A stretch of 33,032 bases of DNA from an uncultured Clostridia bacterium (GTDB taxonomy: Bacteria; Bacillota; Clostridia; Christensenellales; Borkfalkiaceae): positions 1 to 33,032 of the forward strand of contig CANRFW010000007.1 in NCBI GenBank assembly GCA_947630035.1, written 5' to 3'. Below the pieces are notes generated by a model. It had not been told where the DNA came from and did not search any database. It saw nothing but the letters and a program-made list of their open reading frames with translations. Made by a program: the position numbers and the translations under genes. This document shows positions 3,859 through 29,815 of this stretch, in pieces (within the stretch, counting starts at the first letter, position 1; every line of letters begins with the position of its first letter).

Positions 3859-3895
3859 GGTGAAAATATTTCTGAAAAGTTTTTTCGGAAAACTA

Positions 3896-3924
3896 TTGAA
3901 ATTATTTTTATTACAATGTATAAT
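3896..3924 (+). promoter_or_regulatory. Promoter of the InlB-repeat surface protein
   Basis: TTGAAA (3896-3901), a 17-base spacer, then TATAAT (3919-3924). Transcription would begin near 3931, leaving a leader of about 55 bases that contains AAGGAGG at 3974-3980. Confidence 0.75.
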
Positions 3925-3985
3925 AGTAACAAGACTAAAATCGGGAAAACCAAAAATTTTTTTCCGATTTCATAAGGAGGAAAGG

Positions 3986-10191: not shown

Positions 10192-10208
10192 AATTTACCT
10201 CCATCTTA

Positions 10209-13639: not shown

Positions 13640-13652
13640 CTTCTCTCCCCTC

Positions 13653-14729
13653 CTATAATTGAACGACCCACTTGGACGAACGGCGGAACTGTATGACCGT
13701 GACGATCATGATTATGACGCCGAGGATGAGCGCCGCCGCGGAAGCTATGTTGTAGTTGTGCTGATTGATCCCGAAGTTCCAGATGAAGTAGACCGCCGTC
13801 CGCGCGTCGGGGTCCCCCGAAGCGAAAATCGCGGAGTCGGCATAGGACTGCAACGTTCCCGAGACACGCATGATGAGCTGGTAGAAGAGGGTGGGCGTGA
13901 CCATGGCAAAGGTAATGTGCCAGAACTTCTGCCATCCGTTCGCGCCGTCGAGTTCCGCCGCCTCGTAGTATTCGGGAGGAATGGTGCTGATCGAAGCATA
14001 GAAGAGGATCATGCTCCTGCCCATGCCGCAAATGGAGTTCTTGATGATGATCGCCGCGAGGACCCAGCCCTGATCGGAGAGCCACTTAATGTTGGTGCCG
14101 AAGAGATAGTTGAGGAAACCCCTGTTGATACGGGCGGGGTCGTCGAGGAAGATCTGCTGCCAGATGATGCTCGCCGCAACCACACTGCACACCGTGGGAA
14201 GATACAGAAGAATGCGGAAGATCTTGTTGTAACGGATCTTCGACCCGGAGATGAGGGCCGCAGCCATAAGCCCGAGCGCGATGACGATCGGCACTTCGAT
14301 GAGGTAGAACACCGTGTTTATCATGCAACGGTAGAACTCCTGCCCGTACTGCCAATCCTTGGGATTGAAGAGCTTGGCGAAATTGTCGAACCCGACAAAT
14401 TGGAAGGTGGCGGTGAGCGGCTCGAATTGGGTGACCGACAGGATAATGGCGAACACCATCGGCGCAAGGATAAATACGCTGAACGAAAGAACGCTCGGCA
14501 ATATCATGAGGAAGGCGGCAATGTTCTCCCGGCGGTAGAGTCTGCCGGGAGCCAACTGCTTTGCGGGTTTCGAGGGCTTCGTTGTCCCTGCACGGGAAGC
14601 CGCCTCTACTGCGGAGGCCGCTCCCGCACAGGCCCCGATCTGCCCGTCTGCGGACACGAGGGGCGCCCTGCCCGCTTCCGTGAATTCGGCGAAAGCGGGG
14701 GTTGTCGTCTTATCTTCGTATTCTTTCAT
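13653..14729 (-). CDS. Carbohydrate ABC transporter permease (MalF-type) with long N-terminal extension
   Basis: 358 residues. Hydrophobic segments begin near residue 70 and the EAA loop is at about 253-279 (EYYEAAELDGANGWQKFW), typical of MalF/UgpA-type CUT1 permeases. The first 65 residues are hydrophilic, alanine- and lysine-rich and without recognisable domain; most CUT1 permeases have shorter tails. The start is supported by GGAGGT eight bases upstream. It is the second gene of the uptake operon, 26 bases after the binding protein. Confidence 0.92.
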   Translation of the reverse strand: MKEYEDKTTTPAFAEFTEAGRAPLVSADGQIGACAGAASAVEAASRAGTTKPSKPAKQLAPGRLYRRENIAAFLMILPSVLSFSVFILAPMVFAIILSVTQFEPLTATFQFVGFDNFAKLFNPKDWQYGQEFYRCMINTVFYLIEVPIVIALGLMAAALISGSKIRYNKIFRILLYLPTVCSVVAASIIWQQIFLDDPARINRGFLNYLFGTNIKWLSDQGWVLAAIIIKNSICGMGRSMILFYASISTIPPEYYEAAELDGANGWQKFWHITFAMVTPTLFYQLIMRVSGTLQSYADSAIFASGDPDARTAVYFIWNFGINQHNYNIASAAALILGVIIMIVTVIQFRRSSKWVVQL

Positions 14730-14755
14730 TGGATACCTCCGTCAAAGAGACGGGT

Positions 14756-16533: not shown

Positions 16534-16563
16534 TTGACGAAATTAAATTTTTATGTTTATAAT
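16534..16563 (+). promoter_or_regulatory. Promoter of the GLUG/sialidase-like lipoprotein gene
   Basis: TTGACG (16534-16539), an 18-base spacer, then TATAAT (16558-16563). It is back to back with the uptake-operon promoter, about 100 bases away, with AT-rich DNA between. Confidence 0.75.
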
Positions 16564-16633
16564 AGAAATGATAAAACGCACGCGCCCCCCGCTGAAAAAA
16601 TTTTTCGGGTTTGCGCATGCGGGGAGGAAAAGA

Positions 16634-19027
16634 ATGAAGTTTCGCAGAACTATAGGGTCCGTTCTTCTCGGCGTCTTCCTGTTCGGGTCCATGGGGACCG
16701 TGGCGGGCTGCGGGGGCGGATGGAACGGCAGCGTCTCCGAATCGCTCTCGGGAGCAGGCACGCAGCAGGATCCCTACCTCATCCAGAGCGGCGGCGACCT
16801 CGCGTATTTGCGCGACAAGCTGAACGCGGACGAGGCGTCCTACAAGAGCGCCACCTACTCGCTCGGGCAGGACATCAACCTCGGCGACCGTGAGTGGACC
16901 CCCATGAAGGGCTTTGCGGGGACCTTCCTCGGGAACGGGCACAAGATCACCCATCTCAAGGTCACGAAGGCGGGAGAGAACAGCGGGCTGTTCGCCTCCC
17001 TCTCGGGCGCCGTCGTAAAAGACCTCTCCGTCTCCGCCGAGATCCAATGCGCGGCGAAGAGCGGCATCCTCGCGGGCGAGGCGGCGGGCAACACCGTCAT
17101 CTCGAACGTCACGGTGAGCGGGTCGCTTACGGGGAACGACCAGTCGCAATACCTCGGCGGCATTGTGGGTTACATAAACACCGAGGGCGTGACGACGATC
17201 TCCGACTCCGTGAACAATGCGGAGATCAGCGGTCTCACCTATGTGGGCGGCATCGCGGGCGTCAATGCCCTGTGCGACGTCGTCTACGATTCCTGCGTCA
17301 ACAACGGCAAGATAAGCGGCAAGCAGAATATCGGCGGCATCGCGGGTTACAGCTTTGCGCGCTCGGCAAGCACGGCGGGCAAATTCGTCGACTGCCGCAA
17401 CAACGGCACGGTCGACGGTGAAAAGAACCTCGGCGGCATCACGGGCACGGCGAACCTGCCCCTCATCCGCTGCACCTCCGGCCCCTCTGCCGCCGTCACG
17501 GCGGACGACGGGTTCGAGAAGATCACGGCGGGCGGCATGGCGGGCTTTGCCGCTCCCTTCATCGGGAAGCTGTGCGGCCTCTCCAACTACGACGGACAGA
17601 GGTCTTTCTCGCAGATGACCGACTGCACCGACGAGTTCGGCTGGGCGGTGACGACGACCGAGCAGAGCGGTTGCGTCCGCTTTGTGGACTATAAAGACAA
17701 GGTCTACCTCTTCGGCACGACCAATAAGTATGCGGTCTCCGAGGACGGCGGGCGCTCCTTCGGCCCCTTCACGACGATCAGCACCGGCTCTACGCCGACC
17801 GAGATCGGCCCCTCCGAAATCGACTGCCCCGCCAACGCCCAGCACAAGCTGAACGACGTCGGCAACACCCAGCCCTTCGTCCTGAAAGACGGGAGACTTG
17901 CGATCTTCTACCGTGCCCACTACAAGGGGACCTTCTCGGGCGGGACCTTCTATCCTTACAGCTCCATCCGTATCCGCATCAGCGACAAGAACGGCGTGTT
18001 CAACCCCAACGACGAGCCGATCATGCTGATCGAGACCGGTTCCTCCGTCTCCACAAGAAAGACGGGCGGGCTGTGGGAACCCTTCCCCATGTACCTCGAG
18101 GACGGGACGATCGCCGTCTACATTGCAAGCGACGTCCACCTCTCCGAAGAGAGGACCGCGTACGGGCGCACGATCCCCGCGCTCGATCCCTCCCTTCTCT
18201 CGGCGGGCGATTCCCAAAACATTATTATGGTCCCCCTCACGATCGAGGACAATGCGACCGAGGTCGGCAAGGGCATCACGATCGGGACGACCGAACTTGC
18301 GATCAAGGGTTCCAAGACGAATGAGGAAGGCACGGGCGACGGCCAGACGGAAGCGGACGGCGTTGCAGCGGGCAACCACGGGAACACCGACGCCCGCCCC
18401 GGCATGCCGGTCGTAACCACCCTTAAAGACGGCAGCTATGCCATGATCGTGGAATCCTGCGACGAGCAGAAAGACTTCTGGGATCTCGAAGAAGACAGGA
18501 TCCCCGCGGGATACAACGGCAATGCCTTCCCCATGGTCATCCAGATCTCCTATTCGAAAGACGGACACAAGTGGACGCAGCCCGAGACCATCGTCCGCCC
18601 CGCGGTCATCGGCAAGAAGTGCGCCGCGCCCGGGATCGCGACCCTCCCCGACGGCAGGGTGATCATCACCTACCACACGACGATGGACTATGTGGGCGGC
18701 ACCCCGAACGACTCCGCCCGCATGCAGCAACTCACGGCCGCCGTCTCCAAAGAGGTTTTGACCTACGGGGCGCAACTCAAAGTGAGTTACCGCTACGCGG
18801 TCGACAAGGTCTCCGAGGACAAGAACAGCTCGTTTATCCAGCTGCCCCTCTACCGCTACAGCGAGAACGAATCGTGCGTGTGGGGGAACGTCAACGTCCT
18901 GAAGAACGGGCGGGTGTACATCGGCGGACAGCACGCCATCAACACGGTCAACGGCAGCACCGTTACCTCCGCCACCAAGTGGACCCTCATCATGGAGCGG
19001 GACGCAAGCGACCTCCCGAAGGCTTAA
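16634..19027 (+). CDS. Surface lipoprotein with N-terminal GLUG beta-helix and C-terminal sialidase-like (BNR) propeller
   Basis: 797 residues from ATG 16634, chosen because GGGGAGGAAAAG precedes it and a lipoprotein signal follows (GTVAGC, cysteine 26). An upstream in-frame ATG at 16553 lies within the promoter. Residues about 35-280 form a GLUG-type repeat domain (TPMKGFAGTFLGNGHKITHL, then GGIVGYI, GGIAGVN, GGIAGYS, GGITGTA). From about 330 to the end it resembles a sialidase/BNR six-bladed propeller with Asp-box-like motifs SEDGGRSFGPF (about 368) and YSKDGHKWTQP (about 639). I cannot confirm a full sialidase catalytic set, so the substrate is open. Divergent from the sugar-uptake operon, it probably captures or trims the same glycan at the surface. 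Confidence 0.8.
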   Translation: MKFRRTIGSVLLGVFLFGSMGTVAGCGGGWNGSVSESLSGAGTQQDPYLIQSGGDLAYLRDKLNADEASYKSATYSLGQDINLGDREWTPMKGFAGTFLGNGHKITHLKVTKAGENSGLFASLSGAVVKDLSVSAEIQCAAKSGILAGEAAGNTVISNVTVSGSLTGNDQSQYLGGIVGYINTEGVTTISDSVNNAEISGLTYVGGIAGVNALCDVVYDSCVNNGKISGKQNIGGIAGYSFARSASTAGKFVDCRNNGTVDGEKNLGGITGTANLPLIRCTSGPSAAVTADDGFEKITAGGMAGFAAPFIGKLCGLSNYDGQRSFSQMTDCTDEFGWAVTTTEQSGCVRFVDYKDKVYLFGTTNKYAVSEDGGRSFGPFTTISTGSTPTEIGPSEIDCPANAQHKLNDVGNTQPFVLKDGRLAIFYRAHYKGTFSGGTFYPYSSIRIRISDKNGVFNPNDEPIMLIETGSSVSTRKTGGLWEPFPMYLEDGTIAVYIASDVHLSEERTAYGRTIPALDPSLLSAGDSQNIIMVPLTIEDNATEVGKGITIGTTELAIKGSKTNEEGTGDGQTEADGVAAGNHGNTDARPGMPVVTTLKDGSYAMIVESCDEQKDFWDLEEDRIPAGYNGNAFPMVIQISYSKDGHKWTQPETIVRPAVIGKKCAAPGIATLPDGRVIITYHTTMDYVGGTPNDSARMQQLTAAVSKEVLTYGAQLKVSYRYAVDKVSEDKNSSFIQLPLYRYSENESCVWGNVNVLKNGRVYIGGQHAINTVNGSTVTSATKWTLIMERDASDLPKA

Positions 19028-19053
19028 CGCTTTCCCCATCCGAAAATACGGCA

Positions 19054-19087
19054 AGGACCCATGGTTTCCCCATGGGTCCTCTTTTTT
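19054..19087 (+). terminator. Terminator of the sialidase-like lipoprotein gene
   Basis: An 11-bp stem (AGGACCCATGG with its complement, 19054-19064 and 19070-19080) has a 5-base loop and is followed by CTTTTTT, 26 bases after the stop codon. Confidence 0.9.
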
Positions 19088-19314: not shown

Positions 19315-20700
19315 TCATGCGAGGCTGTCGAATTGCAGTCCCGCATACTTGGCAAATTCTTTCAGAGCGCGGGTGTAGTCGCCGGGGACTTCACTCATGT
19401 GGTGGATATACGGTCCCTCCACCATCTTGCGCTCGAGGGCGGGCAGGTCTTTGAACTCCGCCCACATGTAAGTCCCCGTCGTCGCGGGACCTTTCACGGT
19501 GTGTACGGTCTCGGCAAACAGGTAATAATTCCCCCTGTCGGCCTGAAAACGTGCGATCGTGTATTCGCCGTCTTGGAGTCTGAACGCGGGCTTCCCGCCG
19601 CAGATGCGGGGCTTTCCGACGCTGTATTTCGTGGGGAAGGGGCCGCAGTGCCACAGAAGTTCCGCATTCTCGTTTTCGGGGTGACGGCTCGTGAATTCGC
19701 CCTGTATGGGCTTCTCTTTGCCGCGCGTCGCCGCAAGCAGAAGTGCGTTCGTGATCGCCATGTGGATATCCGATTCGCAGATGACGTAGATGCCCCGTGC
19801 GGCGAGGACGCTCATCGCAAGGCAAGGGTACACCCCGCCCCACGCGACTTTAAGCCCCGTCCAGCATTCGCCGCTGATGAGGTTGCAGTTGTACGTCTTC
19901 GCAAGGTCCTCGTAGAACAGCACATACGCCATCGAGCGCATGAGAAGTTCCTCGGAGCTTTCGCCGACGTCGAACATCTTTTTGAGAGATGCGACCTCGC
20001 GGGCGAGGTCCTCCTGCCGCGTCTCCCATATCGCATTGAGAGCGACGCCCGCCTCCGCCAAATTGACGGGGGTCACGCCGATGCCGAATTTCTCGCAGAG
20101 TTCGAGTTCGTTGTACATGACGGAGCGGAAGGGCGAGACGCGCGTCCCCACCGAGAGAATGCGCAGGTCCTTGAAATTCTTCACCATGCAGGCAACGGAA
20201 AGGAAGGTGTTCAACCCCTCGCGGAAGGCGGGAACCTCGATATCGCAGTTCTCGATATAGGAGAAGGGGATATTGTTCCTGCGGAGCTGTTTCCCGATGG
20301 CGAACAGCCCGCACTGCGTATCGGTGTAGCGGAGCCCCTCCGAATAGTTCCTGTCGCGAGGGCCCCAAAGGAGAGTGGGGACGCGGAGCTGTTTGGCGAC
20401 CTCCCCCGCCGCCTCTTCGTTGCCGAAGTTGCAGGCAAGGATGAAGAGCGCATCGATCTTCTCCTTGCGGAAGTATTCCGCCACCCTGTCGCAATCGGCG
20501 TTGAGGCGGAGGATCCCCTCCTCGTTCAGCCAATCGAGATCGACGAATTCCGTGTCCGCATCTGCGAAGTGTTCCTTGATATAGGGAACGCACTTCTCTT
20601 TGTTCTCCATCGCATATTCCGCCTGAAAGATCCCGACGAACTTTTCCTTGCGGTACCTGCGAAGGGGCAGCAGTCCCACTTTCAGATGATAATTCAGCAT
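19315..20700 (-). CDS. L-fucose/L-arabinose isomerase-family protein
   Basis: 461 residues, similar in layout to the FucI/AraA-like fold: an N-terminal Rossmann-type region (IDALFILACNFGNEEAAGEVAKQL), a middle domain (LRILSVGTRVSPFRSV), and a metal-binding C-terminal part with acidic and histidine residues in plausible positions (Glu278 in SGECW, Asp311 in CESDIHMA, His351 in LLWHCGPFP). Such enzymes interconvert aldoses and ketoses with Mn2+. At 461 residues it is shorter than E. coli FucI (about 590), so it belongs to the divergent fucose-isomerase-like group, and the substrate should not be assumed to be fucose. AGGAGG is five bases before the ATG, nine bases after the PfkB stop. Last gene of the operon. 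Confidence 0.78.
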   Translation of the reverse strand: MLNYHLKVGLLPLRRYRKEKFVGIFQAEYAMENKEKCVPYIKEHFADADTEFVDLDWLNEEGILRLNADCDRVAEYFRKEKIDALFILACNFGNEEAAGEVAKQLRVPTLLWGPRDRNYSEGLRYTDTQCGLFAIGKQLRRNNIPFSYIENCDIEVPAFREGLNTFLSVACMVKNFKDLRILSVGTRVSPFRSVMYNELELCEKFGIGVTPVNLAEAGVALNAIWETRQEDLAREVASLKKMFDVGESSEELLMRSMAYVLFYEDLAKTYNCNLISGECWTGLKVAWGGVYPCLAMSVLAARGIYVICESDIHMAITNALLLAATRGKEKPIQGEFTSRHPENENAELLWHCGPFPTKYSVGKPRICGGKPAFRLQDGEYTIARFQADRGNYYLFAETVHTVKGPATTGTYMWAEFKDLPALERKMVEGPYIHHMSEVPGDYTRALKEFAKYAGLQFDSLA

Positions 20701-20709
20701 ACAGACCTC

Positions 20710-21609
20710 CTATTTTCTCTCCGATAAAAATTTTTGTACTTCACCGTAATCGGGCAATGCGTTGCGCACGCCCGCACGCGTACACTTGATCGCCGCCGCC
20801 GCGCTCGCGAAACGGCAGCACTCCTCTCTCGCCATACCCCTTAAATACGCCGCGAGGAAGGCGCCGTGGAAGGTGTCGCCCGAGCCGTTGGAATCCACAC
20901 AGCGGACGGGGAACCCGGGGTAAGCACGGCAGGCGCCGTCTTCATAATACAGCCCGCCCTTTGCGCCCTGCGTGACTGCGAGTACCTCGGGGGAATAGGC
21001 GCTTTGCAGGGCGAGCATCGCCTCCTCCGCCGTCCCCTTTCCCGTTTGGGCGAGGGCGAATTCCTCGGACGGGATGAGGATATCGGCATACGGGAGAAGC
21101 TCCCCTATGCCCTCGTAATTGCCGCCCGCGTCGAGGCTTACCTTCACGCCCCGCCCGCGCGCATACTTCGCCGCGGCGATCGCCGAACGGAGATAGTTGC
21201 CGTCGAGGTGGAGGACGTCCGCCCCGTCGATCGCGGAAAACAGCACGTTCTCCTCCCTATCGGGCAGGGTGCCGCGGTCGAACACGCAGGTGCGCGAACC
21301 GCTCTTCTCCGAGAGAAGGATATAGGACGTGAACGCCTTTGTCCCCTTGACGCAGACGGTACGGTCGGTGCGGACGCCGAACCGCGCGAACTCCTCAAGA
21401 AGCCGCGCGCCGTTTTCGTCGTCCGAGACGCCGCCCAAATACTCCGCCGAAACGCCGAGCCTTGCGAGCGCGACGAGCGCATTTCCGACCGGGCCGCCGC
21501 CCGTCGAAAAGACGCTCTCCGCCCGCGCCTTCTTGTCCTCCGCGGGATATTCCCGCATACAGATCACCGTATCGAGGACGTTTGCACCGATGCCGACTAC
21601 CCTTTTCAT
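20710..21609 (-). CDS. PfkB-family carbohydrate kinase
   Basis: 299 residues with the two ribokinase-family signatures: STGGGPVGNALVALARLG (about 35-52) and DSNGSGDTFHGAFLAAYLRG (about 239-258), with Asp245 the expected catalytic base. It should phosphorylate a sugar or sugar acid with ATP. Its start overlaps the aldolase stop by four bases (ATGA), a strong sign that it makes the aldolase's substrate. Close functional models are IolC (2-deoxy-5-keto-gluconate kinase), LacC and sulfofructose kinase; sequence alone does not separate them. Confidence 0.88.
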   Translation of the reverse strand: MKRVVGIGANVLDTVICMREYPAEDKKARAESVFSTGGGPVGNALVALARLGVSAEYLGGVSDDENGARLLEEFARFGVRTDRTVCVKGTKAFTSYILLSEKSGSRTCVFDRGTLPDREENVLFSAIDGADVLHLDGNYLRSAIAAAKYARGRGVKVSLDAGGNYEGIGELLPYADILIPSEEFALAQTGKGTAEEAMLALQSAYSPEVLAVTQGAKGGLYYEDGACRAYPGFPVRCVDSNGSGDTFHGAFLAAYLRGMAREECCRFASAAAAIKCTRAGVRNALPDYGEVQKFLSERK

Positions 21610-22451
21610 GCGCGGTTTTCCGCCCCCAGTACCTTGATTTTCGATTCTGCGAAGGATTGCACCGCCTCGATCGGGGAATGCTCGCCCTCCATGAAGAGGT
21701 CGATCCCGACGATGGACTTATCCCGCGAACGGCAGCCGTCGAGGAAGGAATAGCAAAGATCTGTGCTGAAATTCATCTTGCGGACGCCCGCCTCCACGGC
21801 GGCGCGGATCTGCTCGTCGGGAACGCCGCTCCCGCCGTGCAGAACGAGCGGGGTGTCCGTCCGTTCCTTGATGGCGCGGATGCGCGCAATGTCGAGCATG
21901 GGCGCCTGTTTGTACCGCCCGTGCGCCGTGCCGACCATGACGGCAAGGGCGGAGACCCCCGTCTCGCGGATGAACTCCTCCGCTTCGGCGGGATCGGTGT
22001 ATTCCGCCTTGACCGTTTCATCGCCGTCCGCGGCCTTCCCGACGTGCCCGAGTTCCCCTTCCACGCCGACGTTCACGTACCCCGCGAGGCGGACGGCCGC
22101 ACCCGTGCTTTGCTTGTTTTCCTCCAAGGGGAGGGCGGAACCGTCGTACATGATGCCCGTCATGCCGAGGCGGAGGGAGCGGACGATCTCCTTCTCCCCC
22201 GCGCCGTGGTCGAGGTGGAAGGCGACGGGAACGGGCGACCTGTGTGCGAAATCAAGCACGATGGGCGCCACGCCCTCGGCAAAGCCCGAGGTCACGAGCC
22301 GCGAATAAAATTGCAGGATGACGGGAGAGCGGAGCTTTTCCGCGGCGTTCATCACGCCCTTCACCGTCTCGAGATTGTACACATTGAATGCGGGAATGCA
22401 GAATTTTTTCTCCTCGGCAAGCCCGAGGATCTCCTTAAGTCCTATCAGCAT
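21606..22451 (-). CDS. Class II (zinc) ketose-bisphosphate aldolase, FbaA/GatY/IolJ type
   Basis: 281 residues with all class II aldolase landmarks: HLDHG (79-83, catalytic Asp81 and zinc ligand His82), EGELGHVG (131-138), zinc ligands His177 in GTAHGRY and His205 in LHGGSG, and KMNFST (225-230) at the DHAP-phosphate site. It should cleave a ketose-1-phosphate or bisphosphate to DHAP plus an aldehyde. The length fits GatY, KbaY and IolJ. It is translationally coupled to the PfkB kinase, giving a kinase-aldolase pair as in tagatose-6-phosphate, inositol or sulfofructose pathways. Confidence 0.9.
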   Translation of the reverse strand: MLIGLKEILGLAEEKKFCIPAFNVYNLETVKGVMNAAEKLRSPVILQFYSRLVTSGFAEGVAPIVLDFAHRSPVPVAFHLDHGAGEKEIVRSLRLGMTGIMYDGSALPLEENKQSTGAAVRLAGYVNVGVEGELGHVGKAADGDETVKAEYTDPAEAEEFIRETGVSALAVMVGTAHGRYKQAPMLDIARIRAIKERTDTPLVLHGGSGVPDEQIRAAVEAGVRKMNFSTDLCYSFLDGCRSRDKSIVGIDLFMEGEHSPIEAVQSFAESKIKVLGAENRA

Positions 22452-22470
22452 AAACTTCCTCCCTGTCGGT

Positions 22471-23838
22471 TTATATCAGTTCGCGCGCATCCGCCACGAT
22501 GCCGTAATCGGCATAGCCGAAGATGCGCTCCTCTCTGTTGGAATTGACGGCGATCACCGTGCCCGAGTTCTCCATCCCGCAGGTGTGCTGGACGGCGCCC
22601 GAGATGCCGATCGCGACATACACCTTGGGGTTGACGATCTTTCCCGTAAGCCCCACTTGCGCCTCGTAGGGAAAGGCGCCGCTGTCCGCCGCAACGCGCG
22701 AACAGCCGATCTCCCCGCCGAGCCTTTCGGCAAGGGCAACGATCTCCTCTTTTGCGCACAGCCCCCCTCGCCCGACGGAGAACATGAGGTCCGAACCGCG
22801 GCAAGCCGTCTTTACGGTCGCCATCGAGACGGGGCTCTCCGCCACGATATCCGCAATGACGTTGCCGCCGCAGGCGGGACGCGTCATCACCGCTCTCCCC
22901 TCCCGCACCGAGAAATCGATGCAGTCGGCGCACAGCCCCGCACCGAGCAGGACGGCGGTGCGCGCCGCGAGTTCCTTGTAGCGGTCCGTCCCCTCCCAAA
23001 GCACCGTGCGGTATCCGCCCGATGCGATCTCCTCCGCGATCTCTTCGGGCGTTTTTCCCGATACGTCGAGGGAAACGGCGCCGCGGGCGAGCTTCTGCGC
23101 CGCCTCCGCCGCTCCGCCGACAAAGGCACAGCGGCCGAGAAGTCCCTCTCCGATCTTCGTTCCCTCCGCGCGGACGGGGGTCTTTTTCAGCCCCTCGGCG
23201 ATGAGGGAGGGAAGGGCGGAGGGGGGGACAAAGGTGCATACGCGCCTGCCCACCGTACTCTCGCGGGAGGAGACGACGCGCGTCGGCGAACCCCGCAGTC
23301 CGCACCTTTCGGGATCGAGCCGCAACACGGCGTTGTCCCACACCTCCGTCTCCCCCGCCGAGGAGAAGATGGAGGGAAAGCGCAGGGCGCAGATCTTTTC
23401 GAATGCCGCCACATACCTCTTCTGCGGGAAGACGGTCTCCCCTCCTCGCAGGCAAAGGGACTTGCCGTCCGTCTGCATGACCTTGTTGTAAAACTCCAAC
23501 CCCATGCGCTGGGCGAGCATGGCGGGGACTTGCCCCGTATCGCCGTCTACGCTCTGCCTTCCGCAGAACACGGCGTCGAACTCGAGGCGCCCGAGCGCCT
23601 CGGAGAGAATGTAACTCGTGGCGATCGTATCCGACCCCGCATAGGCGCGGTCGGAGAGCAGCACGGCCCTGACGCCGAGGCGGGTGAGCGAGCGCATCGC
23701 ATCCGCCGCCGCGGGGGGCGCCATGGCGAGCGCCGTGACCTCTCCCCCCAAACGGAGCGCCGTTTCGAGCGCGGCGCCGTCGAACGGGTTCAGCTCTCCC
23801 CTGTAAAATTTCAGAAGGACGACGATCTTATTTTTCAT
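22471..23838 (-). CDS. Single-chain electron transfer flavoprotein: EtfB-EtfA fusion
   Basis: 455 residues in one frame. Residues 1 to about 230 are EtfB-like: LNPFDGAALETALRL (17-31) and CGRQSVDGDTGQVPAMLAQ (92-110), the nucleotide-binding motif, whose GRQ-DGDT form resembles ETFs of bifurcating dehydrogenases. Residues about 230-455 are EtfA-like: LGAGLCADCIDF (298-309), SVGRGG (354-359) and the FAD-binding stretch 378-422 with GCSRVAADSG, YEAQVGLTGK and GISGAVQHTCGM, ending with IFGYADYGIVAD. Separate EtfB and EtfA usually total about 580-600 residues; the loss is mainly in the EtfA N-terminal domain. It should take electrons from the FAD oxidase and Fe-S protein of this operon. Its start overlaps the FGGY kinase end by 11 bases. 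Confidence 0.88.
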   Translation of the reverse strand: MKNKIVVLLKFYRGELNPFDGAALETALRLGGEVTALAMAPPAAADAMRSLTRLGVRAVLLSDRAYAGSDTIATSYILSEALGRLEFDAVFCGRQSVDGDTGQVPAMLAQRMGLEFYNKVMQTDGKSLCLRGGETVFPQKRYVAAFEKICALRFPSIFSSAGETEVWDNAVLRLDPERCGLRGSPTRVVSSRESTVGRRVCTFVPPSALPSLIAEGLKKTPVRAEGTKIGEGLLGRCAFVGGAAEAAQKLARGAVSLDVSGKTPEEIAEEIASGGYRTVLWEGTDRYKELAARTAVLLGAGLCADCIDFSVREGRAVMTRPACGGNVIADIVAESPVSMATVKTACRGSDLMFSVGRGGLCAKEEIVALAERLGGEIGCSRVAADSGAFPYEAQVGLTGKIVNPKVYVAIGISGAVQHTCGMENSGTVIAVNSNREERIFGYADYGIVADARELI

Positions 23839-25291
23839 GGAAAAACTCCGCGTAGAACGCGGCAGCCCTCTTGTATTTTACGAACATTTCGCCGTAAAAC
23901 TGCGTACGGGCGGGGTCGGGATAGGTCTCCCCCGTCTTCTTTCCGCAGCGGCGGATCCCCTCGTCGAGGGTAGAAAAGAAGCCCGCGGCAACCGCGGCGC
24001 ACACCGCGGAGCCGAAGGACGAATCGTTGTTTTCGGTTGTCACGAGGACGAGATCGAGGACGTCGGCAAGGATCTGCCGCCAGAGATCGCTCTTCGCCCC
24101 GCCGCCGATCGCGTAGGCGCGTCCCCCGAGGCGTACCCCCTTTTCGAGGAGGTACCGCTTGCAGTCGAGGAGACTCATCGCCACGCCCTCCATGACGGCG
24201 CGGGCAAAGTGCCCCTTGCCGTGTTCCGCCGAGACGCCGAGGAACCCACCGCGGAGGAGGGGATCGGAATAGGGCGTGATCTCGCCGCGGAGATAGGGAT
24301 GGAAGAGTAGCCCGCCGCTTCCCGCGGGGACTTCGGCTGCGAGCCCGTCGAACTCCCTGTAGCTTCCGCCGAAGGTATCGCGCAGCCAGCGGAGAGACGC
24401 CGCCGCCGACTTCGTCCCGCTCCCGGGATAATACAGCCCGCTCTTCAAGTGGGAGTAATTGAGAATGCTCTTATCGGGATAGATGCGGTCGTCCACCGTG
24501 CAGATCCTGCCCGCCGTGGCGAGTTTGACCGTCATATCCCCCTTGTTTACGCCGCCCGCCGCGAACACTTCCATGACGGTGTCCGTCGCGCCGCAGATGA
24601 CTTTCGTCCTCTCCGAAAGCCCCGTCTCCCGCGCAACGGCGGGGAGTACGGTGCCGACTTCCTCCATCGGTTCGACGATGCGGGGCATGTTTTCCTTCCG
24701 AAGCCCGACAATGCCGAGGAGGTGTTCGTCCCACTCCTTTTTATCGAAATCGAGGAGCATGCTCCCCTCTGCCTCGATGCGGTCGGTGACGAAGTCCCCC
24801 GTAAACTTTCTGCGGACGTAGTCCTTGGCGAACACGACTTTTCTTACCCGCGCGAATGCCTCGGGGAAGTTGTTTTTAAGGTATAAGATCTCGGGCAGAG
24901 ACCACACGGTATCGACGCGGTGCCTGCACTTTCGGAAGATCTCGTCGCCGTAGCGCTCTTCGAGGAACGCCTTCTCGCGGTAGGAGCGGGTGTCCGTCCA
25001 ATAGATCGCGGGAGCGACGGGCACGAACTGCCCGTCCGTCAGAACGGCGGTGTGCGTCGCCGCGTCGAAACAGATGCAGGCGATGTCCTCGCCGCGGAAC
25101 CCCATGCCGAGAACGGCGCAGATATTCGCGCATGCGGCTCGGTACCAATCCTCGGGGTCCTGCTCCGCCCTGCCGTCCCCGCCGTAGTCGGTGGGATACT
25201 CGGAGGACGCCGTCGCGACGACCCTGCCGCGCTCGTCTATGAGCGTAGCTTTCCCCGAGCCGCCGCCGAAATCGATTCCCAATGCGTACAT
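23828..25291 (-). CDS. FGGY-family carbohydrate kinase (xylulokinase-like)
   Basis: 487 residues, the usual length. LGIDFGGGSGKATLID (4-19) is the N-terminal phosphate-binding motif. YWTDTR (97-102) and CGATDTVMEVFAAGG (233-247, Asp237 the expected catalytic base) follow, then the C-terminal ATPase fold with ARAVMEGVAMSLLDCKRYL and IGGGAKSDLWRQILADVL. It phosphorylates a sugar or polyol with ATP. Xylulokinase is the nearest general description, but FGGY specificity is not readable. It sits 86 bases after the IolB-like gene, the widest gap in the operon; that gap shows no clear promoter or terminator. Confidence 0.87.
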   Translation of the reverse strand: MYALGIDFGGGSGKATLIDERGRVVATASSEYPTDYGGDGRAEQDPEDWYRAACANICAVLGMGFRGEDIACICFDAATHTAVLTDGQFVPVAPAIYWTDTRSYREKAFLEERYGDEIFRKCRHRVDTVWSLPEILYLKNNFPEAFARVRKVVFAKDYVRRKFTGDFVTDRIEAEGSMLLDFDKKEWDEHLLGIVGLRKENMPRIVEPMEEVGTVLPAVARETGLSERTKVICGATDTVMEVFAAGGVNKGDMTVKLATAGRICTVDDRIYPDKSILNYSHLKSGLYYPGSGTKSAAASLRWLRDTFGGSYREFDGLAAEVPAGSGGLLFHPYLRGEITPYSDPLLRGGFLGVSAEHGKGHFARAVMEGVAMSLLDCKRYLLEKGVRLGGRAYAIGGGAKSDLWRQILADVLDLVLVTTENNDSSFGSAVCAAVAAGFFSTLDEGIRRCGKKTGETYPDPARTQFYGEMFVKYKRAAAFYAEFFHEK

Positions 25292-25377
25292 AGTTGCTCC
25301 CTTCCCATTCGGGATTTTCTCCCGTCTCTTTTAAGAAGCTCCCCGTGTTTTCCGCCGCCCTCTCCCTGAAAGGACGG

Positions 25378-26169
25378 TTATTTTGTCATCCACTTATGCG
25401 CCTCTTCGGTGACGCTTAAAAGCCCGCGGCGCTTGCCCGCCATGATCCAGAGGCAATAGTTACGGTATCCGGGCGCCACCGTGAAGGGATGGTAGCCCTT
25501 GGGGATCTCCACAAAGTCTCCCGTCTTTACCCTGTACGCCTCGTCGATCGTGCCGTCCGACGTGTAGACCATCTGCACGCCGAAGCCCTGCGGCTTATCG
25601 AATTCGAAGTAGTAGATCTCGTCGAGGAAGGCTTCGGGCGGGGCATCCACGTCGTGCTTGTGGGGCGGGAAACTCGCCCAGCTGCCGTCTTTCACCCAGA
25701 ACTCCCCGATATAGAGTTTGTCCGCGGGCACCGTCTCGGGGAAGGTGAACGCCACTTCGCGCACATACGCCCCCTTGCCGAAGGTACTCATCGCCACGTC
25801 CTTTGCGCGGGTGCAGACGGCGGGGTGATCCTTTTCGGCGCGTGCCTTGCATACGCAGATCTTCACGTCTCCCCCCACGGCCGTCACCGTAAAGGGCTTG
25901 TTCCTGCCGACATAGACGGACTCCGCCGCCGTGCCGTCGAACACGCTCTTGCGCACGCCGACCTTGGGGAAGGAGAATCCCTCGCCCTCTACCGAACACG
26001 TCCCGTAAAGGACGATGAGAACAAACTCCTTGCCCGGTTCGTCGACCGTATAACTCGTCCCGTCCGCAAGTTTGAGCATGTCCGCCTCCTCATAGGTGAG
26101 GGGGCTGTTGCGCTCCGTGACGATGTGTTCGTAGCCGTATTTTTCGCTGTACCTTTTCAAGAGATCCAT
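25378..26169 (-). CDS. IolB-like sugar-acid isomerase (5-deoxy-glucuronate isomerase family, double cupin)
   Basis: 263 residues, close to the typical 260-270. The C-terminal cupin is well conserved: WASFPPHKHD (164-173, ligands His170 and His172), EIYYFEF (184-190, Glu184), GFGVQMVYTSDGTIDE (195-210), GYHPFTVAPGYRNYCLWIMAG (225-245, His227). IolB converts 5-deoxy-D-glucuronate to 2-deoxy-5-keto-gluconate in myo-inositol breakdown, just upstream of an IolC kinase and IolJ aldolase, and PfkB and class II aldolase genes are in this operon. IolG, IolE and IolD are absent, so the real substrate may be another deoxy-uronate. It lies 13 bases after the Fe-S gene. Confidence 0.85.
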   Translation of the reverse strand: MDLLKRYSEKYGYEHIVTERNSPLTYEEADMLKLADGTSYTVDEPGKEFVLIVLYGTCSVEGEGFSFPKVGVRKSVFDGTAAESVYVGRNKPFTVTAVGGDVKICVCKARAEKDHPAVCTRAKDVAMSTFGKGAYVREVAFTFPETVPADKLYIGEFWVKDGSWASFPPHKHDVDAPPEAFLDEIYYFEFDKPQGFGVQMVYTSDGTIDEAYRVKTGDFVEIPKGYHPFTVAPGYRNYCLWIMAGKRRGLLSVTEEAHKWMTK

Positions 26170-26182
26170 ATCTTCCTCCCGT

Positions 26183-27262
26183 TTACAGATTTTCGAGCAG
26201 CATTTCTTCGACGGAGATCACGCGGGAGCCTTCGGGACAGGTCTCCTTGAGAAGGACATATTCCGCGGGATTTTCCGTGACGACCGTGCGGCATTCCATG
26301 TTGTTTGCGTTCTCCCACCGCTTGAGGGCAACGGCGCGCTGCACTTCGGGCATATAGGTACGCATGACGAGGTGCCCCGCAAGATTCGCCTCCTTCCCGA
26401 AAAGCAGCATCTCCCTGTTCTCGCCGGCGCACTCCACGAGGCTGCGCACCGTCTCCGTGTCGTCGAGATCGCGCGCATAGGCGTAGTTATCCTGCACGGT
26501 GTAGACGTTCTTCCCCTTCTTCACGCCGAGCTTTTTGCCGCGGATAAGGCCGAGCAGGAAGGCGTTGAAGCCGACGATCTCCGCATGTACCCCGATCCCC
26601 CACTCCTTGTATTCGTGGAGGAGGAGCTTGAGGTCCGCGGGGTCGTACACCACCACGGTGCGGTAGCCGTTCAGGATCTTCGCGCACGCCTCCGCCGCCG
26701 CGCGGGTCTCCTCCGTCTTGCCCGTGAGGAACCACATGGCAGCGCCCGTATCGCATGCCTTTTCGTCGAGCGCGGCCTCAACTCCCGCACGGGAGAGAAG
26801 GTCCAGCGCCTCTTTGACGCAACCGGGGGCGCAATAGAGCGCATCTTGCCCTGCGAGGAAGAGGGTCCCGCTCTTTTTGCCGAAGAGCGGGGAAAGGCTC
26901 CCGTCCGCCTTCGCGCCGTACACGTTGCCCGTCTCCGCATATTTTTTGAGAAGGTCTGCGATATAGGGCGGGATGCACCCTTCGAGGACGGCCTGCGTCT
27001 TCACCGTCTGCACAAATTCCTTGGGGTCGAACCCCGTCATGCAGTTGTTCGTGCATGCGCCGCAGAGACTGCATTCATAGAGATTGTCGACGACGTTTTC
27101 GAGCTTCTCCGCCCCTCTTGAGACCATGGAGACGGCGAGAGCGCGGGCGCGGGCCGTATTCCGCTCCTGCCCCGTGGCGTTCCCGATGGGACACACATGG
27201 CGGCACATCCAGCAGAATCTGCAGTTGTCGAGGATATAATTCGTGTTTTCACTCACTCTCAT
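26183..27262 (-). CDS. [4Fe-4S] electron-transfer protein (GlpC/LutA/GlcF-like)
   Basis: 359 residues. Two classical [4Fe-4S] motifs sit at the N-terminus: C14-C17-C20-C24 (CRFCWMCRHVCPIG) and C64-C67-C70-C74 (CSLCGACTNNCMTGFDP). The C-terminal two thirds match the position of the CCG domains of GlpC/GlcF-type proteins, but only a few cysteines (CAPGC) are visible and the repeated CCG motif is not, so that part is degenerate or distinct. There is no membrane segment. Lying 15 bases after the FAD oxidase and upstream of a fused ETF, it probably wires the oxidase to its acceptor, as in lactate or glycolate oxidase complexes. Confidence 0.83.
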   Translation of the reverse strand: MRVSENTNYILDNCRFCWMCRHVCPIGNATGQERNTARARALAVSMVSRGAEKLENVVDNLYECSLCGACTNNCMTGFDPKEFVQTVKTQAVLEGCIPPYIADLLKKYAETGNVYGAKADGSLSPLFGKKSGTLFLAGQDALYCAPGCVKEALDLLSRAGVEAALDEKACDTGAAMWFLTGKTEETRAAAEACAKILNGYRTVVVYDPADLKLLLHEYKEWGIGVHAEIVGFNAFLLGLIRGKKLGVKKGKNVYTVQDNYAYARDLDDTETVRSLVECAGENREMLLFGKEANLAGHLVMRTYMPEVQRAVALKRWENANNMECRTVVTENPAEYVLLKETCPEGSRVISVEEMLLENL

Positions 27263-27277
27263 GATTTCTCTCCCTTT

Positions 27278-28702
27278 TTATAATCCGAGCTTGAACGGGT
27301 TCATGATGCCGTTGGGATCGAGAGACTTTTTCAGCCCCTCAAAGACCTGCATCGCCGGACCGTATTGTTCCTTCATCAGTCTGCCGAGCTTGAGGCCGAC
27401 GCCGTGGTGATCGTTGACGACGCCGCCGTTCTCGAGCGCCGCCCTCACGCCGACCGACCAGATCCTGTTGTGCAGGCGCATCGCCTCCGCGGGATCTTCG
27501 GGCACGAATTCCTTTTCGACGATGAACCGGTCGTATACCATACACCCCCACTCGTACCAATGGGAGAAGTGCGCGATGAACTTCACATGCTCGAACTGCG
27601 TCTCGATGGCCTTCTTCATCGCCCAATAGATCTTCTCGATCTTATCGTAGGGCGCGATCGTATCCATGGTGCCGAACATCTGCGGAATATCGAGCATGTG
27701 CCCCGGGTAGAAGAAGGTGATCTTCTCCTTCCACCACTTCTCGCCGTATTCGCTCCCGAGGTCCTCCGCCCCGTATTTCCCGAAGACGGAAAGCACGATC
27801 TTCTCTTCCACCTCCACGAGTTCCTTCGGCCCCTCGTAGGCAAGCGTCATGAAGGCGCCGGGCTTCTGCACGCCCACGATCTTTTTGATGAGCGAGACCG
27901 TCTCCGCCTCGTCGAAGAGCCGCATGACGCTCGGCTTGAATTTCTGCAGAACTTCCTTTGCCGCAAGGAAAGCGGAGTGCATGTCCTTAAAGAGGAACCC
28001 GCGGAACTTGCGCGATTCGGGCTGCTCGTAGATCCGCATCTGCGCCTTCGTGATGATGCCGAGCGTCCCCTCCGAGCCGATGAAGATCTGGTTGAGGTCG
28101 GGCCCCGCCGCATGCTTGGGCGCGGGAGACGTCTCGATAATGTCGCCGTTCGGAAGCACCACTTCGAGCTTTAACGCCATGTCGTCGATCTTGCCGTATT
28201 TGGTGGAGACGACGCCGATGCCGCGGTGCGCGAGGAATCCGCCAACCGTGGAGCAGGTGAGCGAGGAGGGATAGTGCATGGTGGTACACCCCTTTTCGTT
28301 CGCCGCCCACTCGACGTGCTTATAGATGGCGCCCGCCCCGCACTCGACATACATGGAATCGGTGTTCACATCATAGATTTTATCCATGCGCTTCGTATCG
28401 AGGACGATGCCCCCCGCAACGGGAATGGCGCCGCCCTGCGTGCCGCCGCCCCCGCCCCATGTGGTGACGGGGATCTTGTAGTAGTTTGCGATCTTCAGAA
28501 CCTTGGAAACTTCCTGCGCATCCTTGGGGGAGACGACGAAATCCGCCTCGGGCATTCTCCTGCCCCTGTCCGCCCACATCCTCGAGAGCCAGAAATAGTC
28601 CACGCTGTGCGTGACCCTGTCGATCTCCTTGGTTGAACAATTCTCCCTCCCGATTGCATCCTCAAGTTCCGTCAGTACCTGCGTGAATAAGAAATCGTTC
28701 AT
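27278..28702 (-). CDS. FAD-linked oxidase of the GlcD / alkyl-DHAP synthase (AGPS-like) family
   Basis: 474 residues. The PCMH-type FAD domain is marked by TWGGGGGTQGGAIPVAGGIVLDT (81-103), CSTVGGFLAHRGIGVVSTKYG (150-170) and GSEGTLGIITKA (about 210). The C-terminal cap has FSHWYEWGCMVYDRF, NDHHGVG (430-436) and DPNGIMNPFK, patterns nearer to AGPS than to classical GlcD or D-lactate dehydrogenase. Such proteins oxidise a 2-hydroxy acid or related alcohol through FAD; with the Fe-S protein and fused ETF here, a dehydrogenase role is more likely than ether-lipid synthesis. First gene of the operon, preceded by GAGGT and a clear promoter. Confidence 0.87.
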   Translation of the reverse strand: MNDFLFTQVLTELEDAIGRENCSTKEIDRVTHSVDYFWLSRMWADRGRRMPEADFVVSPKDAQEVSKVLKIANYYKIPVTTWGGGGGTQGGAIPVAGGIVLDTKRMDKIYDVNTDSMYVECGAGAIYKHVEWAANEKGCTTMHYPSSLTCSTVGGFLAHRGIGVVSTKYGKIDDMALKLEVVLPNGDIIETSPAPKHAAGPDLNQIFIGSEGTLGIITKAQMRIYEQPESRKFRGFLFKDMHSAFLAAKEVLQKFKPSVMRLFDEAETVSLIKKIVGVQKPGAFMTLAYEGPKELVEVEEKIVLSVFGKYGAEDLGSEYGEKWWKEKITFFYPGHMLDIPQMFGTMDTIAPYDKIEKIYWAMKKAIETQFEHVKFIAHFSHWYEWGCMVYDRFIVEKEFVPEDPAEAMRLHNRIWSVGVRAALENGGVVNDHHGVGLKLGRLMKEQYGPAMQVFEGLKKSLDPNGIMNPFKLGL

Positions 28703-28750: not shown

Positions 28751-28779
28751 ATTATAACACTATATGAAAATTTTTTCAA
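28751..28779 (-). promoter_or_regulatory. Promoter of the eight-gene catabolic operon
   Basis: On the minus strand TTGAAA (28779-28774), a 17-base spacer, then a perfect TATAAT (28756-28751), about 50 bases before the first start codon. Confidence 0.8.
28765..28778. promoter_or_regulatory. Candidate RpiR operator overlapping the catabolic promoter
   Basis: TGAAAA-TT-TTTTCA is a 6-2-6 palindrome covering the -35 box and much of the spacer; binding there would block RNA polymerase. TGAAA/TTTCA half-sites suit RpiR-family regulators, and an RpiR gene is divergent. A similar imperfect site (GTGAAAATTTTTTTGAAC) lies near 28816-28833. AT-richness makes chance matches possible. Confidence 0.45.
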
Positions 28780-28960: not shown

Positions 28961-29815
28961 ATGGATAACACACTTTTGGATATCAAGATCCTCTACGACA
29001 AGATGAGCGTCTCCGAAAAGAAGGTCGCCGACTTTCTTTCGAGCAAGCCCTATGCCGTCCCCTCTATGACCATTTCGCAGCTCGCGGAGACCTGCGGCGT
29101 GAGCGAGGCGACGATCGTCCGTTTCACAAAACGGGTCGGTCTCGGCGGGTATCAGCAGCTCCGTATCGCCTTTGCGCAGGTGAGCGGAAGTCCCATAAAC
29201 GAGGGCATCACCGTTACCGATTCCCCCTATGATATCTACTCGAAGATCTGCAACGATATCTATTGCTCTCTCGAGAAGACGAGGGGCGCACTCGACGCGG
29301 AGCAGATGCAGAAGGCGTGCGACATGATCATCGCCGCGGAGGATATCCTCGTGTTCGGGCTGGGGAACTCCGCCGCGATCGCGCAGGACGCCTCCCACAA
29401 GCTCTTCCGCCTCGGCCTCAACGCGCACTTCTTCACCGACAACCACATGCAGGCCATCGCCGCCTCGCACACCTCGGATAAGAGCCTCATCATCGGCATC
29501 TCCCACTCGGGGAGAACGCGCGACATTGTGGAATCCATAGAGCTTGGCAAGCAGAACGGGGCCAAGTCGATCGCCATCACGAACTGCGAGAAGTCGCCCA
29601 TCAGCAGGGTGTGCGACGCCGTCCTGTATACCGCGTCCGACGAGACCAACTACCGCGTCCTCGGACTTTCCTCCCGCCATGCGCAAATGGCGATCGTGGA
29701 CTCCGTCTATTCCTACCTCGTGTGCCACCTCGAGCAGTCGAAGGAATATATCTACCGCACGGAGACCGCCGTCGCCCCCAAGCGCTATCCGCAAAAGAAA
29801 GAGCGGAAATCGTAA
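28961..29815 (+). CDS. MurR/RpiR-family transcriptional regulator
   Basis: 284 residues. The N-terminal 80 residues are the RpiR helix-turn-helix domain (KKVADFLSSKPYAVPSMTISQLAETCGVSEATIVRFTKRVGL...). Residues about 125-245 are a SIS sugar-phosphate-binding domain (DILVFGLGNSAAIAQDASHKLFRLG, IGISHSGRTRDIVESIELGKQNGAKSIAITN). RpiR proteins sense a phosphosugar and repress or activate adjacent catabolic genes. It is divergent from the eight-gene operon across a 258-base AT-rich gap containing a palindrome at the operon's promoter, so it very likely controls that operon, with a phosphorylated intermediate of the pathway as the probable signal. Confidence 0.92.
   Translation: MDNTLLDIKILYDKMSVSEKKVADFLSSKPYAVPSMTISQLAETCGVSEATIVRFTKRVGLGGYQQLRIAFAQVSGSPINEGITVTDSPYDIYSKICNDIYCSLEKTRGALDAEQMQKACDMIIAAEDILVFGLGNSAAIAQDASHKLFRLGLNAHFFTDNHMQAIAASHTSDKSLIIGISHSGRTRDIVESIELGKQNGAKSIAITNCEKSPISRVCDAVLYTASDETNYRVLGLSSRHAQMAIVDSVYSYLVCHLEQSKEYIYRTETAVAPKRYPQKKERKS

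Follow-up and report, generated by a model that had tools for sequence, protein, structure and literature searches.

We analyzed a stretch of 33,032 nt of the contig CANRFW010000007.1 (the window, which below means this whole stretch), in which eight genes on the minus strand, from position 28702 to position 19315, probably form one co-transcribed catabolic unit. We consider it moderately probable that these genes represent an RpiR-controlled, accessory sugar-catabolic operon of anaerobes. Its core would oxidize, isomerize and phosphorylate a sugar, the eight-gene version would also split the product to dihydroxyacetone phosphate (DHAP) and an aldehyde, and an acidic substrate is the most likely one. 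An operon with this gene order and these families had been proposed in an earlier note on the same DNA, and all eight open reading frames (ORFs) were located where it had placed them, with Pfam and NCBIfam assignments in agreement.

From first to last, the genes encode an AGPS-type oxidoreductase dependent on flavin adenine dinucleotide (FAD) (474 aa, 27278-28702; Pfam FAD_binding_4 and FAD-oxidase_C), an iron-sulfur (Fe-S) adaptor protein (359 aa, 26183-27262; Fer4_8), an IolB/KduI-type isomerase of sugars or sugar acids (263 aa, 25378-26169; KduI), a xylulokinase-like FGGY carbohydrate kinase (487 aa, 23828-25291), a compact fused electron-transfer flavoprotein (ETF) with a beta part followed by an alpha FAD domain (455 aa, 22471-23838; ETF and ETF_alpha), a class II ketose-phosphate aldolase (281 aa, 21606-22451; F_bP_aldolase), a PfkB-family kinase (299 aa, 20710-21609; PfkB), and an aldose-ketose isomerase of the AraA/FucI fold (461 aa, 19315-20700). 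Two of the earlier family labels were refined, i.e. the "FAD oxidase" is of the AGPS type, and the "FucI-like isomerase" matched no Pfam family and was assigned to its fold by a structural model.

The tight spacing under one promoter, with a divergent rpiR gene, was also confirmed. The intergenic gaps amount to 15, 13, 86, -11, 19, -4, and 9 bases (negative values denote overlaps) and thus do not exceed 86 bases. A sigma-70-type promoter-like site (TTGAAA-17-TATAAT, 11/12) is present on the minus strand ahead of the first gene (28779-28751), and a GC-rich terminator-like hairpin with a T-rich tail directly follows the last gene (19296-19275, minus strand). The whole window contains three promoter-like and 12 terminator-like sites, close to the means of 2.1 and 10.2 obtained with shuffled sequences; therefore, the case for these two sites rests on position and score and not on their number. 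A second strong hairpin (19053-19081), with T-rich ends on both strands and terminator-like in both directions, is located between the operon and a convergent gene. The RpiR-family regulator (284 aa; HTH_6 and SIS) is encoded at 28961-29815 on the plus strand. The palindrome TGAAA-N4-TTTCA at 28765-28778, the single match in the window, overlaps the -35 box and is probably the RpiR operator. TGAAA-N4/5-TTTCA was found in 15 of 25 intergenic regions between rpiR and the flavoenzyme gene, compared to 0.15 on average and 3 at most in 200 shuffles. The pattern had been defined after inspection of the same 25 regions and some of the loci are close relatives, but the excess is considerable.

Conservation of the gene set was analyzed by scanning genome contigs with the flavoenzyme. 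Relatives were found on 269 stretches, of which the best 80 were kept. The flavoenzyme is the most conserved protein of the set, with 81-86% identity over nearly the whole length in these 80 loci. By title, the records cover three phyla and name Clostridia, Oscillospiraceae, Lachnospiraceae, Bacilli, Erysipelotrichaceae, a Cloacimonadota and a Planctomycetia bacterium, among others. An explicit herbivore host or organ word occurs in 38 of the 80 record titles, most of the others being isolate codes; two loci (L048 and L055) carry the same isolate name. Together with the window and a locus from a relative of its genome (G099), 82 loci were compared. Relatives of the operon proteins were counted for the flavoenzyme in 74, the Fe-S protein in 70, FGGY and PfkB in 61 each, the aldolase, IolB, and ETF in 57 each, RpiR in 45, and the last isomerase in 38 loci. 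These counts are lower bounds, because the longest non-overlapping ORFs were called and longer antisense ORFs displaced real genes, including the ETF, aldolase and isomerase genes of the window itself; in addition, several contigs end within the operon. Outside the window, the flavoenzyme gene was called in 73 loci (G099 and 72 of the 80), of which 38 contained all seven non-isomerase genes from the flavoenzyme gene onwards; the gene order took three forms (14, 19, and 5 loci). The neighborhood is thus kept in dozens of other genomes, a result that excludes chance, and the constancy of its content despite the reshuffled order indicates functional unity.

The proteins have also diverged together to different degrees. 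For this comparison, only plus-strand copies near the flavoenzyme gene were used (74 flavoenzymes, 66 Fe-S proteins, 56 FGGY, 56 PfkB, 53 ETF, 55 aldolases, 53 IolB, and 34 isomerases). Pairwise distances among the flavoenzyme, the Fe-S protein, FGGY, PfkB, ETF, and IolB correlated with r values of 0.76-0.93, whereas the correlations with these six were 0.59-0.71 for the aldolase and 0.57-0.76 for the last isomerase; kinship of the sequences inflates all of these values, and the contrast between the genes is the point. A looser link of PfkB (0.49-0.72; isomerase 0.38-0.55), obtained with the longest copy per locus, turned out to be an artefact of second copies, which occur in four loci (PfkB in L035, L058, and L081, the isomerase in L071). 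When the copies neighboring the operon were used, PfkB reached 0.76-0.92, and it therefore belongs to the co-diverging group.

Within the wider kin of the window's genome the set appears to be rare, and the operon was thus regarded as accessory. Among 101 such genomes, an ETF alignment of query length was found, apart from the window's genome, only in G099, and no ETF match was obtained in the 20 listed genomes of the same genus. In viral contigs, neither the fused ETF nor the flavoenzyme had a confirmed relative. Three other versions of the operon were read. The G099 locus contains genes for the flavoenzyme (82% identical), the Fe-S protein, IolB, DUF4867, FGGY, and the fused ETF; PfkB, the aldolase, and the isomerase are absent from the 33 kb compared, and two aldolase relatives with 37-41% identity are encoded elsewhere in the genome, one of them on the same contig. 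In G112 (flavoenzyme 71% identical), genes for NagA-like, Gfo/Idh, NagB-like and barrel proteins are followed by those for the flavoenzyme, Fe-S protein, aldolase, PfkB, IolB, and FGGY. G214 (58%) encodes RpiR, the flavoenzyme, an Fe-S protein interrupted by unread bases, the aldolase, a glycerol-dehydrogenase-family protein, a tripartite ATP-independent periplasmic (TRAP) transporter with a DctP-type binding protein, an epimerase-like barrel protein, IolB, and FGGY, and has no PfkB in the locus. A search for the last isomerase, run without a positive control, did not find it in any of the three. The content common to all versions read is thus the flavoenzyme, the Fe-S protein, IolB, and FGGY. 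Beyond G214, the next flavoenzymes in a sample of 398 genomes are about 36% identical or less. DUF4867 joins in 22 of the 82 loci, and an aldose epimerase joins in other loci.

The best PDB matches of the flavoenzyme were alkyl-DHAP synthases (154 and 135 bits), followed by D-lactate dehydrogenases (126 bits) and, further down, LctD (110 bits). The family alignment contains the motifs HFSHWYEWGxxxY and DHHGVG, and alignments with 2uuu and 4bby revealed that the flavin-site motifs of the AGPS type, SH-Y-x2-G-x3-Y and HHG, as well as an aligned Arg are all present. The motif HxGDGNxH (GDGN) of 2-hydroxyacid oxidases of the GlcD/lactate type is absent from the sequence, and the GlcD model TIGR00387 scored 197 bits, compared to a cut-off of 567.9. 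A plain lactate or glycolate oxidase was therefore rejected, with the motifs being wrong and the scores far under the cut-offs. An AlphaFold model of the flavoenzyme had a mean predicted local distance difference test (pLDDT) value of 51.7, the alignment being too uniform, and was not used.

The second protein is a relative of GlcF and GlpC, albeit a weak one (26 and 20 bits with the respective models), in which the CCG motifs are absent. Two C..C..C...C motifs are present in 68 of 69 operon Fe-S proteins, and a CCG beyond residue 100 in one of the 69. One CCG motif is retained in the G112 protein and two in the G214 protein; the G214 genome gave no ETF match, and the G112 genome contains separate ETF genes only, on another contig. 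Hence, a GlcF/GlpC-like ancestor likely dropped its CCG clusters when ETF became the partner. On a Mesorhizobium plasmid, the gene following a flavoenzyme relative (L167:13446-14570) encodes a protein that resembles the adaptor in place and size, lacks the cysteine motifs, and gave no blastp match to the Fe-S protein of the window; it possibly represents a further step of cluster loss.

The fused ETF is closer in sequence to bifurcating than to canonical ETFs. Its beta part matched the bifurcating ETFs 5ol2, 7koe, 6fah, 4kpu, and 7qh2 with 72-85 bits and the canonical 1efp_B with 24 bits. Electron confurcation is plausible. A specific version, in which the flavoenzyme, the Fe-S protein and the ETF carry out the first step of a new anaerobic sugar pathway as a soluble sugar dehydrogenase that oxidizes a sugar or sugar acid with NAD+ and reduced ferredoxin jointly, is possible, albeit speculative. 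If it were true, a confurcating flavin chain, in which a quinone-type Fe-S output was swapped for an ETF, would be common to many fermenters of herbivore guts.

The same module can also be read as a confurcating 2-hydroxyacid dehydrogenase for lactate or glycerate that merely lies beside an isomerase, a kinase and an aldolase, which would form DHAP and an aldehyde, e.g. lactaldehyde. The affinity of the ETF beta part and the presence of LctD among the flavoenzyme matches would suit such an arrangement of two functions side by side, as would one distant flavoenzyme/Fe-S pair next to a gene that is LarA-like by its N-terminal sequence (by inspection only). However, the flavoenzyme carries the AGPS-type motifs and lacks GDGN, and co-divergence of the flavin genes is looser with the aldolase than with IolB, FGGY, and PfkB. 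The inclusion of PfkB in that group makes this explanation a little less likely still, and we regard it as improbable.

Next to the co-divergence within the operon, a connection between the flavoenzyme and FGGY kinases was observed in other phyla. Relatives of the flavoenzyme with 29-43% identity (42.5% for a Mesorhizobium plasmid) adjoin a FGGY kinase gene, or are one gene away from it, in eight of nine plasmid regions viewed, namely those of Mesorhizobium, Labrenzia, Shinella, two Paracoccus species, Vibrio pelagius, Streptomyces clavuligerus, and Microbacterium, with Methylobacterium being the exception; the nine were chosen from listings and not randomly, and the Labrenzia, Shinella and P. 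contaminans regions are near copies of one cluster. The distances of the flavoenzyme and of FGGY correlated with r = 0.86 over 24 taxa, and the value was 0.85 when only the 12 taxa other than the 80 loci, the window, and G099 were used. In the flavoenzyme tree, the Labrenzia/Shinella/P. contaminans group branches with Streptomyces, Vibrio, and G142, whereas the FGGY tree places it with Mesorhizobium. The two enzymes are thus old partners, with kinases having been exchanged in some cases, and this suggests that the flavoenzyme reaction is close to the FGGY step. Literature searches aimed at the operon gene set turned up no function for clusters of a FAD oxidoreductase and a FGGY kinase. In G142, one run of genes (L151:7405-12758; some names by inspection) encodes a short-chain-dehydrogenase-like protein, a FGGY kinase, an AGPS-type flavoenzyme, and EtfB- and EtfA-like proteins. 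The combination of flavoenzyme, FGGY, and ETF thus exists outside the operon too, with an unfused ETF.

A route via polyol phosphates would also connect these two enzymes. FGGY would phosphorylate a polyol, the flavoenzyme and the GlpC-like Fe-S protein would oxidize the polyol phosphate to a keto-phosphate, and the isomerases and the aldolase would act later; GlpK and GlpABC follow the same logic of phosphorylation before oxidation for glycerol. AGPS handles DHAP, which is a keto-phosphate. In G121, a flavoenzyme/Fe-S pair lies beside a GlpA-like flavoprotein and a FGGY kinase with a GlpK-type stretch, the Microbacterium relative is accompanied by GlpK and glycerol-3-phosphate dehydrogenase, and the S. 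clavuligerus relative is near a glycerol-3-phosphate responsive antiterminator. However, RAT or RTT in the GlpK-like partners corresponds to a THT stretch in the FGGY kinase of the operon, and this kinase scored 339 bits with XylB and 123 bits with glycerol kinase. We therefore consider this route unlikely, though less so than the side-by-side arrangement. Two flavoproteins of the glycerol-operon type (names by inspection only) are encoded in the window at 621-3310 on the minus strand; the flavoprotein at 1877-3310 shares 42% identity with a G121 protein (L147:6108-7577) near the flavoenzyme/Fe-S pair and a glycerol-kinase-like gene.

The preferred scheme of oxidation, isomerization and phosphorylation is consistent with the isomerases, kinases and aldolase. 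IolB exceeded the cut-off of its model (TIGR04378, 226 versus 205 bits). The FGGY kinase is clearly related to xylulokinases (best PDB match, 203 bits), and with 339.4 bits, compared to a cut-off of 380, it falls outside the family as defined by TIGR01312. The best PDB match of PfkB was the sulfofructose kinase YihV (7ag6, 130 bits; next match 97 bits). An AlphaFold model of the last isomerase (pLDDT 91.5) has the fold of L-arabinose/L-fucose isomerases; in Foldseek, the best matches were L-arabinose isomerases with a TMq of about 0.8 and 13-17% identity. Its sole NCBIfam match was the sulfoquinovose isomerase model NF048012 with 76.9 bits, far under the cut-off of 700, and all 37 isomerases scanned matched this model and no other (best E value 2.4e-45). 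The aldolase matched 8q57/8q58, YdjI (6ofu), 7ncc, and 1gvf best, all within ten bits. The DPR stretch of 1gvf (after residue 200) was found in none of 57 family aldolases, and these have a near-invariant Q-x-Y-x-RL stretch where the matched structures have other loops. The Arg of DPR binds the second (C6) phosphate of bisphosphates, and the substrate of YdjI is a ketose-1-phosphate that has a carboxylate tail; therefore, a monophosphate with an unphosphorylated and possibly charged tail is the better guess for the aldolase.

Several of the enzymes thus independently resemble enzymes for anionic sugars, and for this reason an acidic sugar, uronate- or aldonate-like, is our tentative choice of substrate. 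The hints comprise the IolB score, the sulfofructose kinase as nearest solved relative of PfkB, the sulfoquinovose isomerase model as the sole model match of the isomerase, the missing DPR Arg of the aldolase, the place of YdjI among the top aldolase matches, and the DctP-type TRAP binding protein in G214. The general scheme is more secure than this guess.

Some of the same hints would also fit a variant of sulfoglycolysis, in which the isomerase, PfkB and the aldolase degrade sulfoquinovose (SQ) or another sulfosugar in the manner of the sulfo-Embden-Meyerhof-Parnas 2 (sulfo-EMP2) pathway and the flavin chain processes the three-carbon sulfonate. In addition to the PfkB and isomerase matches, DUF4867 also occurs in sulfoglycolysis clusters, according to excerpts of one article (PMC11968277), and SQ degraders are abundant in the cow rumen, according to the abstract of another (PMC13219744). 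However, in the same excerpts on DUF4867 the largest cluster, with 434 of 557 members, goes with aldose/ketose genes including those for FucI-family isomerases and FGGY kinases (PMC11968277), company that suits the operon better than sulfoglycolysis. The passages considered from an SQ review (PMC12890257) name no FAD/Fe-S/ETF, IolB, or FGGY step. Among the families common to at least five loci, no sulfoquinovosidase, sulfolactaldehyde enzyme, or sulfonate exporter was recognized, most single neighbors being unannotated, and the isomerase was not found in G099, G112, and G214 by the search mentioned above. A simple SQ pathway of the sulfo-EMP2 type was rejected, because the isomerase of the window is far under the equivalog cut-off, and the sulfosugar variant as a whole appears to us to be of low probability.

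IolB, a kinase and a class II aldolase constitute the lower half of the inositol pathway, and a cyclitol had been among the substrates named in the earlier note. PfkB would then replace IolC and the class II aldolase would replace IolJ, and the IolB score is in favor. However, IolD exceeded the cut-off in only one of 27 operon genomes (some of them incomplete), while the control was positive in three of 14 known genomes, and the G214 barrel protein reached 35 of 290 bits with IolE. The operon therefore does not belong to the usual inositol pathway. Degradation of myo-inositol was rejected as such, and we consider a myo-inositol/cyclitol pathway of this kind very improbable.

In the pathway that we propose, the AGPS-type flavoenzyme would take two electrons from a hydroxyl group of the substrate. 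These would pass via the cluster-reduced Fe-S adaptor to the compact fused ETF of the bifurcating type, which would hand them on, probably to NAD+, with or without ferredoxin. The IolB-type isomerase would shift the carbonyl group, and FGGY would phosphorylate the resulting ketose or keto-acid. In the eight-gene version, the YihV-like PfkB would phosphorylate the ketose at C1, and the aldolase would split the ketose-1-phosphate to DHAP and an unphosphorylated aldehyde. The last isomerase would supply part of the ketose from a further aldose, a role that in other loci DUF4867 and the aldose epimerase may also have. The two kinases may share one substrate molecule or each take a different incoming sugar; the G214 locus, with FGGY and the aldolase and without PfkB, suggests that the kinases can replace each other. 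Activities, order of steps, electron acceptor and substrate class are thus proposals built on the observed gene content, promoter- and operator-like sites, conservation, co-divergence and motif changes. The earlier idea of oxidation, isomerization, phosphorylation and splitting to DHAP agrees with the enzyme families, but a single obligatory line of eight steps is not established, because versions without PfkB, the aldolase or the isomerase exist (G099 and G214).

Several observations weigh against the proposed pathway. The nearest solved relative of the flavoenzyme, AGPS, is not a dehydrogenase, and its reaction is redox-neutral overall. The flavoenzyme and FGGY trees conflict, which indicates that partners have been swapped, and the FGGY partners of related flavoenzymes include GlpK-like ones. 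The two kinases are hard to place in one line. The alpha part of the ETF favors bifurcating over canonical ETFs by a small margin (109 versus 91 bits), and longer fused ETFs with about 30% identity are also present in the relatives G074 and G066. The IolB protein of G214 remains under the IolB cut-off (185 versus 205 bits), and the palindrome is absent from 10 of the 25 intergenic regions. No recurrent transporter or glycosidase was found that would fix the substrate, and NagA-/NagB-like, ManA-like, Ldh_2 and Gfo/Idh proteins join a minority of the loci, pointing in different directions. Methylglucuronate released by GH67 enzymes is unsupported as the source, because a search of 41 genomes revealed no GH67, while the control was positive in four of 14 (GH115 was not searched).

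Of 224 ORFs flanking the operon, 91 were compared with Pfam, and the families listed are the 25 commonest. In the window, a sugar ATP-binding cassette (ABC) transporter with two permeases and a solute-binding protein (Pfam) is encoded at 12698-16357 on the minus strand, and an 824-aa protein with repeats, judged by inspection to be a secreted lipoprotein, at 16553-19027 on the plus strand. Homologs of all three transporter genes are close to the operon in L057 and L075, homologs of the 824-aa protein with 36-40% identity are encoded upstream of it in L057, L075, and L063, and partial sets occur in L054, L063, and L065. The transporter probably feeds the pathway in the window, and the 824-aa protein is a probable accessory. 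The region 8569-16357 encodes, in addition to the transporter, repeat proteins and a GH43-like protein with a domain of the 3-keto-disaccharide-hydrolase type, which has a relative beside the operon in L065 only, probably via its second domain. A 540-aa protein of the window has weak relatives in L065 and L057, and a 1313-aa protein (3860-7801, plus strand) with seven Listeria-Bacteroides repeats and two Flg_new_2 stretches is probably a surface protein.

In two other loci, a 671/672-aa protein is encoded inside the operon between IolB and DUF4867 (L034:13334-15349 and L039:13334-15352). The L034 protein had no Pfam match and no significant PDB match; such a protein may be a glycosidase for the pathway. 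Ten large neighbors that were scanned were rhamnosidase-like, fucosidase, GH2, GH3, leucine-rich-repeat, dockerin, GDSL or unknown proteins. NagA-/NagB-like genes beside or inside the operon in L101, L103, L044, L036, L042, L049, L050, and L144 hint at an input of amino sugars there. An amino-sugar pathway as the general function was rejected, and these genes are viewed as accessory, since NagA-like proteins (named by inspection) were found in 11 and NagB-like ones in 10 of the 82 loci; the NagB-like protein of G112 scored 83 of 237 bits.

The operon flavoenzymes are more than 80% identical across records named Clostridia, Bacilli, Cloacimonadota, and Planctomycetia, largely gut genomes where named. 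Solving the substrate would thus name a food source common to many uncultured fermenters. It would also give a function to the pair of an AGPS-type flavoenzyme and a FGGY kinase, which occurs in Pseudomonadota, Actinomycetota, and the phylum of the window itself, and it might add a new client of electron-bifurcating ETFs. The earlier note had known of no pathway with exactly this set of genes, and our literature searches aimed at it, with preprints and most subscription papers outside their scope, likewise found no description.

Comparison with known systems revealed partial similarities in each case. AGPS, the closest PDB match of the flavoenzyme, shares SH-Y-x2-G-x3-Y, HHG, and the aligned Arg with it, whereas the enzyme of the window is part of a catabolic sugar operon with Fe-S, ETF and FGGY partners. 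Like the window set, the lactate dehydrogenase/Etf complex LctBCD (7qh2) combines a flavin dehydrogenase with an ETF of the bifurcating type; in contrast, the ETF of the window is a single fused chain, the Fe-S protein is separate, the flavoenzyme is of the AGPS type, and the set is linked to sugar isomerases and kinases. In the Mesorhizobium, Labrenzia, Shinella, and Paracoccus clusters, a homologous flavoenzyme lies beside a homologous FGGY kinase as in the window, but their gene tables, which are incomplete, show no IolB, aldolase, or fused ETF. The lower myo-inositol pathway (IolB-IolC-IolJ) also comprises an IolB-type isomerase, a PfkB kinase, and a class II aldolase, whereas the operon adds FGGY and the flavin module, and IolD was not over the cut-off in 26 of the 27 operon genomes. 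The sulfo-EMP2 pathway (SqvD/SftI, SqiK, SqiA) follows the same three-step logic with a distantly related isomerase, and the sulfofructose kinase YihV of the related sulfo-EMP pathway is nearest to the operon PfkB. The operon differs from sulfo-EMP2 by an isomerase below the SftI cut-off, by the lack of recognized SQ-specific genes, and by the addition of the FAD/Fe-S/ETF chain, IolB, and FGGY.

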